DNA from: Curtobacterium sp. MCSS17_008
Lineage (GTDB): Bacteria > Actinomycetota > Actinomycetes > Actinomycetales > Microbacteriaceae
Assembly (NCBI RefSeq): GCF_003234185.1
Contig: NZ_QKSM01000005.1
Span: forward strand, 1-64,000
Direction: 5' to 3'
DNA: 64,000 nucleotides
Positions 11,161-33,689 of the stretch are shown one piece after another (position 1 is the stretch's first letter; each line of letters opens with the position of its first letter). The position numbers and the translations under genes were made by a program. The notes under the pieces are model-generated. The model was not told the origin of the DNA and did no database searches. It saw only the letters and a program-made list of their open reading frames with translations.

Positions 11161-11202
11161 GGACGGGAGGTACGTGGCGGAGCCGCCACGTGCCTCCCGT
11201 CC
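11161..11202 (-). terminator. GACGGGAGGC-family palindrome after the MarR gene
   Basis: GGACGGGAGGTACGTGGCGG, two loop bases, then a complementary arm with a single mismatch. It lies 25 bp past the MarR stop codon and before the oxidoreductase regulatory region. Confidence 0.7.
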
Positions 11203-11226: not shown

Positions 11227-11679
11227 CTACTCGCGCTCGGCGACCGTGTCTGCCGCCTGCTCGTAGAGGCCCGTCGCCAGGGCGTTGAGCACCTGGTGCA
11301 GCCCGCCGCCGTGCGCGCCGTCGACGGCGCGGAGCATGGCGCCGTAGCGCGCGCGGTAGTCCTCGACCACGGCCTCGCCCGGCGGGAGCAGGCGGAGCAG
11401 GGAGCCCCGTCGGTCGGCGGGGTTCGGGGCGCGCTCGAGCAGGCCGGCGCTCGTCATGCGGTCGATCATGTTCGTCACCGCGCCGGAGGTCAGCCCGAGG
11501 TACCCGGCGACCTCGGTCGGCGTCGAGTACCCGGTGTCGCTCACGAGCACGAGTGCGCGCAGGGCGTTCTCGTGGATGCCGGCGCGAGCGCTCAGCTGGC
11601 CGACGAGGCTCGTGTTCGCGCGGACGACCGCGGCGAACGCCGCCATGAGGTCGGCGTCGTCGTCGGTGGTGGGGGCCAC
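11227..11679 (-). CDS. MarR-family transcriptional regulator
   Basis: 150 residues from the GTG at 11679 (AGCAGG 4-5 nt upstream). Winged helix: STPTEVAGYLGLTSGAVTNM, then IDRMTSAGLLERAPNPADRR with the wing D-R-R. The C-terminal half is helical for dimerisation. Its promoter (-10 TATACT at 11732-11737, -35 TGGTTC at 17 bp) overlaps a GTGGT/ACCAC dyad that also overlaps the divergent promoter of the TasA-like operon, so it probably represses itself and that operon; this is inference. Downstream lies the quinone oxidoreductase, another possible target. Confidence 0.85.
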   Translation of the reverse strand: MAPTTDDDADLMAAFAAVVRANTSLVGQLSARAGIHENALRALVLVSDTGYSTPTEVAGYLGLTSGAVTNMIDRMTSAGLLERAPNPADRRGSLLRLLPPGEAVVEDYRARYGAMLRAVDGAHGGGLHQVLNALATGLYEQAADTVAERE

Positions 11680-11731
11680 GGGACCTGCTTCCGTCGAAAG
11701 GGGGACACGGGGCGTCCCCCGCTCTGGGGTA

Positions 11732-11771
11732 AGTATACGAGTGGTCAAATTGGTGAACCACTGACTATCTT
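11732..11771. promoter_or_regulatory. Divergent promoters sharing an operator dyad
   Basis: Minus strand: TGGTTC-17-TATACT toward the MarR gene. Plus strand: TGGTCA (11742-11747), 18 bp, TATCTT (11766-11771) toward the TasA-like operon. The dyad GTGGT-N11-ACCAC (11741-11761) covers both. A regulator bound here would control both directions. Confidence 0.6.
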
Positions 11772-11852
11772 GATGATTGAAGCAATTCGGCCCGAACGTC
11801 TTGCTCCCGAGCCTTCCCGAACCCGAACGACCACCGAACGACGAGGTACACC

Positions 11853-12506
11853 GTGTCCACCAAGCTCCGCACCTCCGCACTGAAGCGGATCCGTTTCGCC
11901 CCCGTGGCGCTCCTCGCCGGCATCTTCGCCGCCGTCCTGCTGTCGCTGTCGCTCACCGGCACGCTCTCCGGGTTCGCGGCGAGCATCACCAACTCGAGCA
12001 ACACCGCCGCCACCGGCACCCTCGTCATGCAGGAGCAGAACGCGGGCGCGACCGTCACGTGTCTCAGCACCGACGGCGGCTCGGTCTCCACGAACTCGGC
12101 GACCTGCTCGACGATCAACAAGTTCGGTGGCAGCACGACGATGACGCCGGGCAACACGGTGAACACCCCCATCTCGATCAAGAACACCGGCACCGCGAAC
12201 GCCGCGACCTTCACGCTCACGCCGGGCGCGACCTGCACGCAGTCGGCCAACGGCACCCAGAACGGCACCGCCACGGACCTGTGCGCGAAGATGAACCTCG
12301 TCATCACCTCGGGCTCGACCACGGTCTTCAGCGGCACCCTCGCCAGCTTCAAGGGCGCGCCGGCCTCGGCCTTCACGATGCCCGCCGCACCGGCCGCCGG
12401 TGCGAGCGTCCCGTTCAACTTCGCGGTCACCCTCGACCAGTCGGCGGGGAACGCCTACCAGGGCCTCGCGGCCTCCGTCCCGATGACCTGGACCTTCACC
12501 GCCTGA
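11853..12506 (+). CDS. TasA/camelysin-like secreted surface protein
   Basis: 217 residues. N-terminus has basic residues, a hydrophobic helix (about 17-42) and then the pattern FAASITNSSNTAATGTLVM, typical of SipW-dependent TasA and camelysin precursors. The mature part is Thr/Ser/Ala/Asn-rich beta-type sequence with four cysteines, consistent with an exported filament-like or matrix protein. GTG start 11853. It heads a locus with a SipW-type peptidase (12788) and a LamG protein (13666). In Bacillus such proteins form biofilm fibres; that function here is inference. Confidence 0.75.
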   Translation: MSTKLRTSALKRIRFAPVALLAGIFAAVLLSLSLTGTLSGFAASITNSSNTAATGTLVMQEQNAGATVTCLSTDGGSVSTNSATCSTINKFGGSTTMTPGNTVNTPISIKNTGTANAATFTLTPGATCTQSANGTQNGTATDLCAKMNLVITSGSTTVFSGTLASFKGAPASAFTMPAAPAAGASVPFNFAVTLDQSAGNAYQGLAASVPMTWTFTA

Positions 12507-12584
12507 TCCGCGGCCACTGCTCCGGCGGGACGTGCCGATCCCGTCCCGCCGGTGTCCACCTCCACCACCTCGAGTCCCCCGAAC

Positions 12585-12676
12585 CGACGCCTCCCGACCG
12601 GCCTCCCCCTTCCGGCCGGGCGACGTCCCCCGCGACGCCTCCCGACCGGCCTCCCCCTTCCGGCCGGGCGACGTCC
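12585..12676. repeat. Two 44-bp direct repeats between TasA-like and SipW-like genes
   Basis: 12585-12628 and 12633-12676 are identical 44-mers, 48 bp apart, in the non-coding gap. Each contains the pair GGCC...GGCC flanking a pyrimidine run (CCTCCCCCTTCC). Together with the following hairpin they may set the ratio of structural protein to peptidase. Confidence 0.75.
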
Positions 12677-12681
12677 ACCCC

Positions 12682-12719
12682 GGCGGCGCTCGGTCGGCCC
12701 CCCACGACCGAGCGCCGCC
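12682..12719 (+). terminator. 15-bp-stem hairpin in the TasA-SipW gap
   Basis: GGCGGCGCTCGGTCG (12682-12696) pairs perfectly with CGACCGAGCGCCGCC (12705-12719) around an 8-nt loop. It follows the structural gene by 175 bp and precedes the peptidase ATG by 68 bp; it probably acts as a partial terminator or RNA-stability element. Confidence 0.7.
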
Positions 12720-12787
12720 ACCCCTTCCCACGCACCGACCCGCACCCCCGTCGCCCCCGGAGGCGGCCGAACCCACCGGAGCAGCAG

Positions 12788-13669
12788 ATGAGCCAGACGG
12801 CGGCGATCCCGCTCAGCGGCACGCTGGACCGGCCGATCCTGCGCGGGCGGGCCGTCAGCCGCTCCGAGACCGTCCTCGCCTGGACGGTCGCCGCGCTCGC
12901 CGCCGTCCTGCTCGGCGCCGCGGTCCTGTTCCTCTCGGCCGGCGGACGCTGGTTCGTCGTCGAGACCCCCTCGATGGGCGTGGCCGCCCCCGTCGGCACC
13001 CTCGTGCTGGACATGCCGGTCGACGTCGCCACGCTCGACGTCGGCGACATCGTCTCCTTCGAGACCGACGCCAACCCCGGCGTCGTCTACACGCACCGCA
13101 TCATCGCGATCGACGCCGACGGCCTGCACACCCGCGGCGACATCAACGGCGCCACCGACCCGTGGACCCTCACGCAGCGCGACGTCATCGGCGCTCCGGT
13201 GCTCCTCGTGCCGCACCTCGGCTGGCTGTTCCGCGCCGCCCCGATCCTGCTCGTCGGCACCCTGCTGATCTGGACCTTCACCAACGCCTTCACCGACCGC
13301 GTCACCCGTACCTGCCTCCGCATCGCCGGCGGTGCGCTCACCACGTCGTACGCCGCGTTCGTCCTCAAGCCGTTCGTCAACGTGACCACGATCACGAACA
13401 CGTCGAGCCCGCGGGGCGTCGAGGCGACGATCGTCTCGTCCGGCATCTTCCCCGTCCGCGTCGAGGCGCACGGCGGCACCACCGCCCACCTGGTCGACGG
13501 CGAGGTCGGTCGGGTCGTCATCCACGAGCTGACCGACAACGGGCACTACCAACTGACCTCGAACATCGACCTCGACCCGGTCGGCTGGGCCGCCCTCATC
13601 GCGGTGTGCCTCGTGCCGCTCGTGCTCTGCCTGGCCGTCGGCCGCGTCGAACCGGTGCGTGCGTCGTGA
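12788..13669 (+). CDS. SipW-type (S26B) signal peptidase I with extended C-terminal region
   Basis: 293 residues. Membrane helix at about 27-50, then the catalytic serine in ETPSMGVAAP (Ser62) and YTHRIIAIDADG (His103), so the Ser/His dyad of ER-type and SipW peptidases rather than Ser/Lys. A second helix (about 151-165) follows. Unusually, about 120 more residues add another helix (about 178-192), an exoplasmic beta-rich stretch, and a final helix (about 266-284). Its stop overlaps the GTG of the LamG gene. It likely processes the TasA-like protein and the LamG protein. Confidence 0.8.
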   Translation: MSQTAAIPLSGTLDRPILRGRAVSRSETVLAWTVAALAAVLLGAAVLFLSAGGRWFVVETPSMGVAAPVGTLVLDMPVDVATLDVGDIVSFETDANPGVVYTHRIIAIDADGLHTRGDINGATDPWTLTQRDVIGAPVLLVPHLGWLFRAAPILLVGTLLIWTFTNAFTDRVTRTCLRIAGGALTTSYAAFVLKPFVNVTTITNTSSPRGVEATIVSSGIFPVRVEAHGGTTAHLVDGEVGRVVIHELTDNGHYQLTSNIDLDPVGWAALIAVCLVPLVLCLAVGRVEPVRAS

Positions 13670-14517
13670 CCGTCCGCACCCTGCGCGACGGCAGGGTCGT
13701 CGCCGCCCTCCTCGTCGTCGCCCTCGCCGTGGTCGTCCTGCTCAACCAGTTCGCCCCGACCCGATCCGCCTACAGCGCGACCGTGCGGAACCCGGGCAAC
13801 ACCGCGGCCACCGCGCCGTACTTCACCTGTGCCGCCGCCGCGCGCGCCGACGCCTCGGGCGCCCTGTTCGCCTACGACCTCGACGAGGCGTCGGGCTCCC
13901 GCACCGCGGCGGACTCGTCCGGCAAGGGGAACGCCGGCACCTACCAGGGCACGATGACCGCGACCGCGAACCCCGGTGCCTGCGCACGCGACGGCGGCCC
14001 GGCGTACACGCTGAACGGGTCGAACAGCTTCGTCTCGACGCCGCGCTCCTACGCCAACCCCACGACGTTCAGCGAGGAGGTCTGGTTCCGGACCACCGTC
14101 GCCGGCGGTCTGCTCATCGGCTTCGGCAGCAACCAGGTCGCCGTCTCCGGGCAGCACGACCGGCAGATCTACATCAACACCGCGGGGCAGCTGGTGTTCG
14201 GCGCGTACAACGGCACCACGCAGGTGATCACCTCGCCGAGGGCCGTCACGGACGGTGGATGGCACCACGTGGTGTCGACGATGTCCCCGACGAACGGCAT
14301 GCGGCTGTACCTCGACGGCACGCTCGTCGCCTCGAACAGCGCGTTCAAGGCCGCCGAGAACTACACCGGGTACTTCCGCATCGGCTACGACACGATCAGC
14401 GGGTGGCCCGGTGCTCCTGCCAACTACTGGTTCACCGGCTCGATGCGCTTCGCCGCCGTCTACTCGATGGAACTGTCCGCGACGCAGGTCGCGAACCACC
14501 ACGCGGCCGGTCGCTGA
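13666..14517 (+). CDS. LamG-domain secreted protein with SipW-like leader
   Basis: 283 residues; GTG start overlaps the peptidase stop as GTGA, indicating translational coupling. N-terminal helix (about 11-28), then SAYSATVRNPGNTAATAPYF, the same pattern as the leader/mature junction of the TasA-like protein. Residues about 60-280 form a LamG/concanavalin-like jelly roll (TFSEEVWFRTT, GGWHHVVSTMSPTNGMRLYL, MRFAAVYSMELSATQV). Such domains bind glycans or matrix proteins. A likely partner or decoration of the fibre, by context. Confidence 0.8.
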   Translation: MTVRTLRDGRVVAALLVVALAVVVLLNQFAPTRSAYSATVRNPGNTAATAPYFTCAAAARADASGALFAYDLDEASGSRTAADSSGKGNAGTYQGTMTATANPGACARDGGPAYTLNGSNSFVSTPRSYANPTTFSEEVWFRTTVAGGLLIGFGSNQVAVSGQHDRQIYINTAGQLVFGAYNGTTQVITSPRAVTDGGWHHVVSTMSPTNGMRLYLDGTLVASNSAFKAAENYTGYFRIGYDTISGWPGAPANYWFTGSMRFAAVYSMELSATQVANHHAAGR

Positions 14518-14518
14518 C

Positions 14519-14560
14519 GGACGGGAGGCGCGTGGCGGCGCCGCCACGCGCCTCCCGTCC
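14519..14560 (+). terminator. Perfect 42-bp GACGGGAGGC-family palindrome
   Basis: Begins two bases after the LamG stop codon. Arms GGACGGGAGGCGCGTGGCGG are perfectly complementary, leaving no loop beyond the central GC. No T-tract. Confidence 0.75.
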
Positions 14561-14646
14561 GACCGTGCTCGGGTGGGGGAAACCCCCACCCGATCGTGCG
14601 GGCACCACCGTCGAGGCCCGCTCGCGTCCGCCCCTACTGTGAAGCC

Positions 14647-15855
14647 GTGCAGAAAGCGACCGCCCTCTGGAGCTCCGCCGTGGACCTCCTCCTCGACGCG
14701 TTCCTCGGCATCGTCTGGCTCGTCCTCCTCGTCACGCTCCTCGCCACCTCGATCGGCAGCATCCCCGCGGCCGGCGTGGGGGTGCTCCTGCTGGTGGGCA
14801 CCACCCTGACGGCCCGGTGGGTCGCCGAGGTCGAGCGCCGCCGCGCGGCGGCCCTCCACGACGTCGACATCACCCGTCCCGTCCGCAGGGCGACCCGCGT
14901 CACCGGGCCCTGGCGCGCCGTGGTGCAGGCGTTCGTCGACCTCGCCGACCCCGTGACCTGGCGGGCCCTGGCGCACCACCTGGTGTCCACCGTGCTCGGC
15001 TGGGGCTTCCTCGCGCTCGTGACGCTCGCGCCGTTCCTCGTGACGACGGCCCGCTCCGGTCCGCTGCTGGGGCTGCTGCCCGGGGGAACGGCGGGTGGCG
15101 TCGTCGCGGCCGTGGTGCTCCTCGTGGTGACGGTGCTGTACGTCTGGGGAGCCGGCCGACTCGACCGCGCGCTCGCCCCGGTGCTCCTCGGGTCGAGCCG
15201 GACCGCGGCGCTCCAGGACCGCATCGACACCCTCGCCGACGCCCGGCAGGGTGCGGTCGACGCCGCCACCACCGAACGACTCCGCATCGAGCGCGACCTG
15301 CACGACGGCGTGCAGCCCCGGCTCGTGGCGCTCGCGATGACGCTCGGCATGGCGCGGTCGCGGTTCGACAGCGACCCCGCGGCGACCAGGGAGCTCCTCG
15401 ACCAGGCGCACCGCGACGCGAAGGACTCCATCACCGAGCTCCGGCAGCTCGCCAGGGGCATCCACCCCGCGATCCTCACCGACCGTGGTCTCGACGCCGC
15501 GCTCTCCGCCGTCGCCGCCCGCAACGCGGTCCCGACGACCGTCGACGTGGCGCTCACCGCCCGTCCGCGGCCCGAGATCGAGGCGGTCCTCTACTTCGCC
15601 GTGGCCGAGGCGCTGACGAACGTCGCCAAGCACTCCGGCGCGACCCGGTGCACCGTCAACGTCGACCAGGTCCCGGACGGCGTCCGGACCGTGGTGTGGG
15701 ACGACGGGAACGGCGGCGCCGGGGCCGACGGACACCCCGGCGGCGGCCTGAGCGGCATGCGTGACCGCGTCCGCGCCGCCGGTGGCACCCTGCAGACCGA
15801 GAGCCCCGTCGGCGGCCCGACCCGAGTGACCGTGGAGGTCCCGTGCGCATTGTGA
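14647..15855 (+). CDS. NarL-type two-component sensor histidine kinase
   Basis: 402 residues. Two membrane segments at about 14-32 and 40-56 and two more at about 110-125 and 141-157 form the sensor part; little lies outside the membrane, so it probably senses membrane stress. The HisKA_3 box is ERDLHDGVQPRLVALAMTLG with His219, followed by the HATPase domain (EALTNVAKHSGATRC, GGGLSGMRDR). TACTGT at 14635-14640 lies 6 nt before the GTG start (leaderless). The response regulator gene overlaps its end by 13 bp. Confidence 0.92.
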   Translation: MQKATALWSSAVDLLLDAFLGIVWLVLLVTLLATSIGSIPAAGVGVLLLVGTTLTARWVAEVERRRAAALHDVDITRPVRRATRVTGPWRAVVQAFVDLADPVTWRALAHHLVSTVLGWGFLALVTLAPFLVTTARSGPLLGLLPGGTAGGVVAAVVLLVVTVLYVWGAGRLDRALAPVLLGSSRTAALQDRIDTLADARQGAVDAATTERLRIERDLHDGVQPRLVALAMTLGMARSRFDSDPAATRELLDQAHRDAKDSITELRQLARGIHPAILTDRGLDAALSAVAARNAVPTTVDVALTARPRPEIEAVLYFAVAEALTNVAKHSGATRCTVNVDQVPDGVRTVVWDDGNGGAGADGHPGGGLSGMRDRVRAAGGTLQTESPVGGPTRVTVEVPCAL

Positions 15856-16505
15856 TCGCCGAGGACGCCGTCCTCCTCCGTGCCGGACTCGTCCGCCTGC
15901 TCACCGACGCGGGACACGAGGTCGCGGCCGCCGTCGACACCGCCCCGGCACTGCTCGACGCCGTCGCGGCCGATCGTCCCGACCTGGCGATCGTCGACGT
16001 CCGGATGCCCCCGACCTTCACCGACGAGGGGGTGCGCGCCGCGGTCCTCATCCGGGCGCAGCACCCCGGGGTCGCCGTGCTCGTGCTCTCCCAGTACGTC
16101 GAGGAGCGCTACGCCGCCGACCTCATCACGAGCAACACGGCCGGGCTCGGGTACCTGCTCAAGGACCGCGTGGTCGAGGTCGACGAGTTCCTCGGCGACG
16201 TCGCCCGTGTCGGTGCGGGTGGCACCGTGTTCGACCCCGAGGTGGTGGCGCAGATCCTCGCCCGCTCGCGCCGCACCGACGGCATCGACACCCTGTCCCC
16301 GCGGGAGCTCCAGGTCCTGCAGCTCATGGCCGAGGGGCGGTCGAACAGCGCCGTCGGCGCCGAGCTGCACATCACCGAGAGCTCGGTCGAGAAGCACGTG
16401 TCCGCCGTCTTCACGAAGCTCGGCGTCCCGGCCGAGGGCACCGGCAACCGCCGTGTGCTCGCCGTCCTCCGCTACCTGTCCGAAGCCGCCGGTCGCGGTC
16501 GCTGA
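15843..16505 (+). CDS. LuxR/NarL-family response regulator
   Basis: 220 residues. Receiver domain with IAEDAVLLRAGL and phospho-acceptor Asp52 in LAIVDVRMPP, Lys in GYLLKDRV; C-terminal LuxR helix-turn-helix LSPRELQVLQLMAEGRSNSA plus SSVEKHVSAVFTKLGV. Phosphorylated by the kinase encoded in the overlapping upstream gene. The DUF4097 gene 65 bp downstream is a probable target or co-transcribed partner. Confidence 0.95.
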   Translation: MRIVIAEDAVLLRAGLVRLLTDAGHEVAAAVDTAPALLDAVAADRPDLAIVDVRMPPTFTDEGVRAAVLIRAQHPGVAVLVLSQYVEERYAADLITSNTAGLGYLLKDRVVEVDEFLGDVARVGAGGTVFDPEVVAQILARSRRTDGIDTLSPRELQVLQLMAEGRSNSAVGAELHITESSVEKHVSAVFTKLGVPAEGTGNRRVLAVLRYLSEAAGRGR

Positions 16506-20043: not shown

Positions 20044-20088
20044 GGACGGGAGGCGCGTGACGGGTTCGCCACGCGCCCCCCGTCGGTC
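20044..20088 (-). terminator. Imperfect GACGGGAGGC-family palindrome after nei
   Basis: GGACGGGAGGCGCGTG...CACGCGCCCCCCGTC with mismatches, 16 bp past the stop of the glycosylase gene. Decayed or diverged copy of the family. Confidence 0.55.
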
Positions 20089-33512: not shown

Positions 33513-33547
33513 TGGAGGCTCGTGGCGACCCCGCCACGGGCCTCCCG
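33513..33547 (+). terminator. Degenerate GACGGGAGGC-family hairpin after the AKR gene
   Basis: GGAGGCTCGTGGC and GCCACGGGCCTCC pair around a short loop with one mismatch; the right flank ends CCTCCCGTCCG like the rest of the family, while the left flank has diverged. Confidence 0.6.
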
Positions 33548-33689
33548 TCCGTTCCGCGGCCACGCACCCGCGGGAACGCACGTTCCGCCAGGACCTCGCG
33601 TGACCCGCGCGACCCGTGCTCGTCACGGGGCGGAAACAGGGGCTGCATAGCGTCGTCGTGACACGGAACCGGCGACGCAAGGGGCAGGC

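Follow-up and report, generated by a model that had tools for sequence, protein, structure and literature searches.

A candidate TasA-type fibre module with a LamG-domain subunit in Curtobacterium sp. MCSS17_008

Introduction

Donor-strand fibres of the TasA type are understood from work on Bacillus and archaea (donor-strand exchange: PMC9674648); none has been described for actinobacteria in the literature that could be searched. In the Bacillus subtilis tapA-sipW-tasA operon, TapA carries the N terminus of TasA on a complete immunoglobulin (Ig) domain, can occupy only the beginning of the filament, which it initiates, and the tapA and sipW genes overlap by a stop-start junction (PMC10151520). 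A conserved proline at the protomer interface of TasA fibres forms the proline box (PMC10151520). In this study, we analysed a locus for a TasA-like protein, a SipW-type signal peptidase and a LamG-domain protein in Curtobacterium sp. MCSS17_008. The window is the whole stretch of 64,000 nucleotides that was analysed (contig NZ_QKSM01000005.1, positions 1 to 64,000).

A first-pass annotation had placed these three genes side by side, and they were found so at 11853-14517. We consider it likely that the locus is a self-contained donor-strand-exchange fibre module of TasA type, in which the LamG protein is the terminal or initiator subunit, as TapA is. The module is probably under MarR control.

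Like tapA-sipW-tasA, the locus combines a major subunit of beta-sandwich fold with a SipW-type peptidase, its minor protein resembles the major subunit in the N-terminal strand, and the minor-subunit and peptidase genes overlap (PMC10151520). However, the minor subunit carries a LamG domain instead of an Ig domain, the peptidase exceeds SipW of B. subtilis by two helices and an exoplasmic domain, the order is tasA-sipW-lamG with an adjoining MarR gene, and peptidase/minor-subunit fusions occur in relatives. The "different design" proposed earlier was somewhat overstated, since the B. subtilis operon has a similar minor subunit and the overlap. Two sequence features of TapA are present in the LamG protein, namely an N-terminal strand like that of TasA, attached to a complete domain of foreign fold, and a gene overlapping the peptidase gene; the Ig (V-set) domain is absent, with LamG in its place. 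Judged from these features, the LamG protein is not TapA but may work like it. The Bacillus cereus sipW-calY1-bc_1280-calY2 cluster likewise combines a dedicated SipW with camelysin-type fibre proteins, but has two camelysins and no described lectin-domain partner (PMC10151520). Two archaeal structures, the Pyrobaculum bundling pili (7ueg) and the Sulfolobus threads (7pnb), share the donor-strand fold class of the TasA-like protein (Z 7.6 and 5.6) and are likened to it by fold.

No description of an actinobacterial TasA/SipW/LamG locus was found in literature searches, subscription papers being outside their reach. Within the searchable literature, this variant of the TasA-type fibre system is apparently undescribed in actinobacteria. 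New here are the proposed lectin-type cap, the four helices and outer domain of the peptidase, the inclusion of MarR in a four-gene unit and the natural fusions of peptidase and cap.

The TasA-like protein

The AlphaFold model of the TasA-like protein was built from 14 orthologues. Its best match among solved structures was the TasA fibre 8aur, determined by cryo-electron microscopy (Foldseek E 4.0e-5, probability 1.00). Direct comparison with 8aur gave Z 9.8 and a root-mean-square deviation of 2.6 over 135 aa (VIA), above the unrelated structures. The next matches, TasA crystals (Z 7.9), the Pyrobaculum bundling pilus (7.6) and self-complemented FimA (7.5), are donor-strand fibre proteins. 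Of the three proteins, the TasA-like one is conserved best, with 78% mean column identity across four genera. Its leader hardly varies within Curtobacterium (pN/pS, the ratio of nonsynonymous to synonymous polymorphism, 0.03) and is followed by a conserved segment, the putative donor strand, which would insert into a neighbouring subunit. Pro99-Gly100 is invariant in the MTPGNTV motif of the orthologues and, judged by eye, may correspond to TasA P62 of the proline box.

Sequence searches alone gave no placement: nothing significant was found in Pfam, and querying the solved structures directly by sequence returned nothing useful, whether the query was the TasA-like protein, its alignment or the peptidase. 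Other SipW loci of this genome encode three TasA-like proteins to which the protein could be related by profile comparison (P 3.3e-5, probability 72%). Each of the three has a weak match to camelysin PF12389, and TIGR04088, the model of SipW leaders, is passed by one of them. The TasA/SipW relationship that had been proposed is thus backed by the fold match, as well as by the catalytic motifs and co-occurrence described below.

The SipW-type peptidase

The Ser62/His103 dyad noted in the first pass is invariant in 14 peptidase orthologues, together with Asp118, Asn120 and Asp124, and the arrangement of a Ser-His dyad with a conserved downstream Asp is that of SipW/ER-type enzymes (ER, endoplasmic reticulum). 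Scores lie under the curated cut-offs, at 40.8 versus 51.85 bits for TIGR02228, the NCBIfam model of archaeal/ER-type signal peptidases, and at 22.3 versus 22.9 bits for PF10502 (Peptidase_S26). By its sequence, the protein is a divergent relative of the SipW/ER-type signal peptidase I. The closest named relative of the Curtobacterium in the genome collection is C. caseinilyticum, whose peptidase is 92% identical.

The AlphaFold model (predicted local distance difference test score, pLDDT, 71) contains helices at residues 23-50, 144-165, 171-193 and 264-284, and its catalytic domain is nearest to human SEC11A/C (Z 8.4 and 7.8). Six strands are modelled at residues 199-260, between the third and fourth transmembrane helices (TM3 and TM4); the helix count places them on the exoplasmic side. 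This domain is weakly Ig-like (Z 5.4-6.9; designed Ig 6.9, FimC chaperone 5.4), and Z values of this size can come from a common arrangement alone.

The extension had been put at about 120 residues, with the possibility that it was an artefact or missing in homologues. It is real, with TM3, the exoplasmic domain and TM4 conserved, but comprises about 105 extra residues when measured against the Bacillus SipW model NF046067 (189 positions). The whole extension (TM2-TM3, exoplasmic domain, TM4) could be aligned without large gaps in 14 of 14 orthologues from Curtobacterium, Subtercola, Frondihabitans and Rathayibacter, and the extended peptidase is also found in other actinobacterial families (loci L068-L073). 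The extension is under purifying selection, with a pN/pS of 0.31 where the catalytic part has 0.27. The exoplasmic segment holds a leader-like motif, SYAAF...ITNTSS; this was considered as the mark of a third substrate and rejected, as it is absent from orthologues outside Curtobacterium.

The LamG protein and the shared leader

Pfam Laminin_G_3 covers residues 117-276 of the LamG protein (2.2e-20). A 25-residue hidden Markov model (HMM) was made from the TasA-like leaders alone and searched against 4787 open reading frames (ORFs). LamG-type leaders, with the pattern F/Y-x-A-x-I/V-x-N-x-x-N/D-T-A, ranked directly under the TasA-like proteins, and unrelated ORFs first appeared at E 0.5 and above. 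E-values of single LamG leaders are modest (from 0.0065 in the verified set); the evidence is the ranking, not the individual matches. The leader pattern reported earlier for both proteins therefore lies above chance. The similarity runs beyond the cleavage region into the segment that is the donor strand in TasA.

Behind the constant leader, the domain is exchanged in relatives: CBM6 plus LamG in L078, two LamG domains in L070 and L073, and two ConA-like domains of the 3-keto-disaccharide hydrolase type in L075. Assignment to the TafC family of fimbrial proteins was tried and rejected (NF052521, 29.9 bits versus a cut-off of 410). The C-terminal third of that family partly matches the LamG domain here (E 3e-7), and literature searches found no paper on TafC.

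Co-conservation and gene fusions

In a survey of 250 Microbacteriaceae genomes, the full-length extended peptidase was present in 25, and two more matches were partial and weak. The TasA-like protein occurred in the identical 25 genomes, with no genome holding only one of the pair (Fisher p 6e-35, a value inflated by genome relatedness). These genomes span nine genera; two of the five sampled Curtobacterium genomes lack both genes. LamG stands alongside in 26 of 29 full-length loci. Both the TasA-like and the peptidase gene were present in all 18 full-length Curtobacterium loci and in all eight from other genera, and a divergent MarR homologue lies upstream in 32 of 33 loci. Any other flanking gene of the reference locus recurs in at most 3 of the 18 Curtobacterium loci; the unit therefore consists of four genes in changing neighbourhoods. 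The same gene set also occurs outside Microbacteriaceae (L068-L073). The module is conserved across many actinobacteria, and the co-conservation of the trio, left as a check by the first-pass annotation, is borne out.

At 15 loci in 14 genomes of one genus (g85), the peptidase and LamG form a single ORF of about 570-600 codons without stops. Most of the fused proteins have a SipW-type leader between the two parts, and a TasA-like gene lies upstream in all 14 loci fetched. These fusions are strong evidence of functional linkage. With the common leader and the gene overlap, they back the earlier view that the LamG protein is likely a second substrate.

A second copy of the module was found in Subtercola boreus P27479: besides L035, this strain has an apparently decayed copy (L040:5854-7129) with truncated peptidase and LamG ORFs and an intact TasA-like gene.

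Proposed mechanism and alternatives

In the proposed mechanism, the TasA-like protein would be the repeating subunit, exported through Sec. The dedicated peptidase would cut off its leader and free an N-terminal strand, which would enter the open beta-sandwich of the next TasA-like subunit. The LamG protein would present the same leader and donor-strand segment ahead of an unrelated, complete lectin-like domain. Since that domain is complete, the protein would give a strand and receive none, and could thus stand at one fibre end only. It may start or cap the fibre, whose end would gain a carbohydrate- or surface-binding head. It would take the place of TapA, with the Ig domain replaced by LamG, and in relatives by CBM6 together with LamG or by another ConA-like domain. 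Peptidase and cap would be made together, in relatives as one polypeptide, and processing might thereby be coupled to initiation. A hairpin after the TasA-like gene may help to hold the major subunit in excess. If this is true, a large actinobacterial group would have in the module a defined fibre that is open to testing and has an end of lectin type, and the natural fusions would make the start of TasA-type fibres at the membrane directly testable.

Several points weigh against this mechanism. Confidence in the TasA-like model is modest (mean pLDDT 62, about 45-55 in the donor-strand region), and strand insertion is inferred. No curated cut-off for the camelysin model or the NCBIfam TasA/BsaA models was reached by the TasA-like protein, which is therefore named TasA-like and not assigned to those models: TIGR04090 gave 12.7 bits against a cut-off of 60, and a PF12389 search of its own genome at E 0.001 had no match. 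The common leader could mean recognition by the peptidase only, without a donor-strand function. Three loci depart from the trio: L074 has no third gene, L075 has another ConA-like domain, and in L076 LamG lies upstream of the peptidase.

The scaffold role for the peptidase suggested in the first-pass annotation is a less likely reading, compatible with a TasA-type fibre: the Ig-like exoplasmic domain of the peptidase would keep the cap or freshly cleaved subunits at the membrane, as a chaperone or fibre base. The conservation of this domain and TM4 under purifying selection points this way, as do the modelled beta domain with its weak Ig-like matches, one of them to the FimC chaperone, the two paralogues in the same genome with an Ig-like domain after TM3, and the fusion of peptidase to cap in relatives. 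However, the Ig-like matches are in the range expected of a common arrangement, the domain was modelled only within the whole peptidase, and the orthologue alignment has no conserved donor-strand motif in it.

It is unlikely that the two proteins are separate substrates of one peptidase, the TasA-like protein forming a fibre or matrix and the LamG protein being a free or wall-bound lectin outside the fibre. A common leader would suffice for common processing, and LamG-type domains are common in the family (strong match in 89 of the 250 genomes), but overlap, synteny and fusion tie LamG to the module, and the two proteins remain similar beyond the cleavage region, within the donor-strand segment.

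We regard as still less probable a single-protein fibre factory, in which the peptidase would cleave subunits, hold them by its exoplasmic domain and supply the initiator (in one genus its own C-terminal LamG domain, self-cleaved), giving one fibre per peptidase. A non-fibrous surface layer or a protease-like activity is very improbable: Pfam PF12389 annotates TasA relatives as camelysin metallo-endopeptidases, but the structures matched best are those of donor-strand fibre proteins.

Locus layout and upstream region

The features of the TasA-type module are listed in Table 1. The first-pass annotation started the locus at 11679, which is the start codon of the divergent MarR gene. It overlooked this gene, the hairpin and the common promoter element, and also a donor-strand reading in which the LamG protein is the TapA analogue.

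Table 1. Coordinates of the module and its sequence elements in the window
Feature	Position	Strand	Remarks
MarR-family regulator gene	11227..11679	-	Divergent from the TasA-like gene; Pfam MarR_2 9.5e-11
Dyad CCCC-N6-GGGG, upstream of promoter	11716..11729	+	Conserved upstream pattern
TATCTT, putative -10 box	11766..11771	+	Conserved in sequence and position upstream of the module in Curtobacterium; role putative
Near-palindrome CTTGATGATTGAAG, candidate MarR operator	11769-11782	+	Adjoins TATCTT; role putative
Gene of TasA-like (putative major fibre) subunit	11853..12506	+	GTG start, 217 aa; SipW-type leader, putative donor-strand segment at about residues 41-60
Two tandem 48-bp repeats, TasA-like/peptidase gap	12585..12680	+	Repeat seen in the gap
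Stem-loop, 15-bp perfect stem, TasA-like/peptidase gap	12682..12719	+	Compensatory changes in 3 pairs across 9 loci (rows picked for a long stem, which favours pairing)
Four-helix SipW-type signal peptidase gene	12788..13669	+	ATG start, 293 aa; Ser62/His103; TIGR02228 2e-10
Exoplasmic beta domain of peptidase, about 65 aa, between TM3 and TM4	13376..13576 (codons 197-263)	+	AlphaFold model
GTGA, peptidase stop/LamG start overlap, 4 bp	13666..13669	+	Kept in 33 of 37 loci
LamG protein gene	13666..14517	+	GTG start, 283 aa; SipW-type leader, donor-strand-like segment at about residues 36-54, LamG domain

The pattern CCCC-N3-7-GGGG was found in 26 of 33 orthologous upstream regions, versus 2% of random 250-nt windows. 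Joined with TATCTT at 28-40 nt, it occurs at two places in the 3.25-Mb genome, this locus and the region upstream of a second TasA/SipW locus (L043), and a reversed control gave none. As the joined pattern was drawn after both sites had been seen, the evidence lies in its rarity, not in its discovery. A sigma-70 promoter scan gave no match. All four TasA/SipW loci of the genome have a MarR gene adjoining or near, and MarR may repress the module.

The TasA-like/peptidase gap varies from 94 to 305 nt across Curtobacterium, and the z score of the entire gap is -5.3. The hairpin recurs in many Curtobacterium loci; a T tract is absent, and a scan of the plus strand for terminator-like sites found none.

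Other TasA/SipW loci and neighbouring elements

Two further TasA-like/SipW pairs of the same genome, each with an adjoining MarR gene, lie at L041:6870-8532 (C3) and L043:6606-8455 (C10). Their peptidases have, after TM3, a leader-like stretch and then a C-terminal Ig-like domain, and are possibly a peptidase-cap fusion of another type. In the fourth locus (L042:5442-7668, C23), the leader is of TIGR04088 type and a MarR gene is close by. Adjoining the paralogous SipW locus of L043, a gene at L043:2835-6269 encodes a protein of 1144 aa that contains IPT/TIG-like repeats and has a sorting signal of the LAYTG type at its C terminus.

A histidine kinase/response regulator pair lies directly 3' of the module (window 14643-16505) and is not conserved with it. 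A dispersed palindromic element (ACGGGAGGCNCGTGGCG...) was found in the window at 11163-11200, 14521-14558 and 20046-20083, with a half-site at 33532-33548. Half-sites of this element number seven, against 0.02 expected, and two of its copies flank the MarR/TasA/SipW/LamG unit on both sides.

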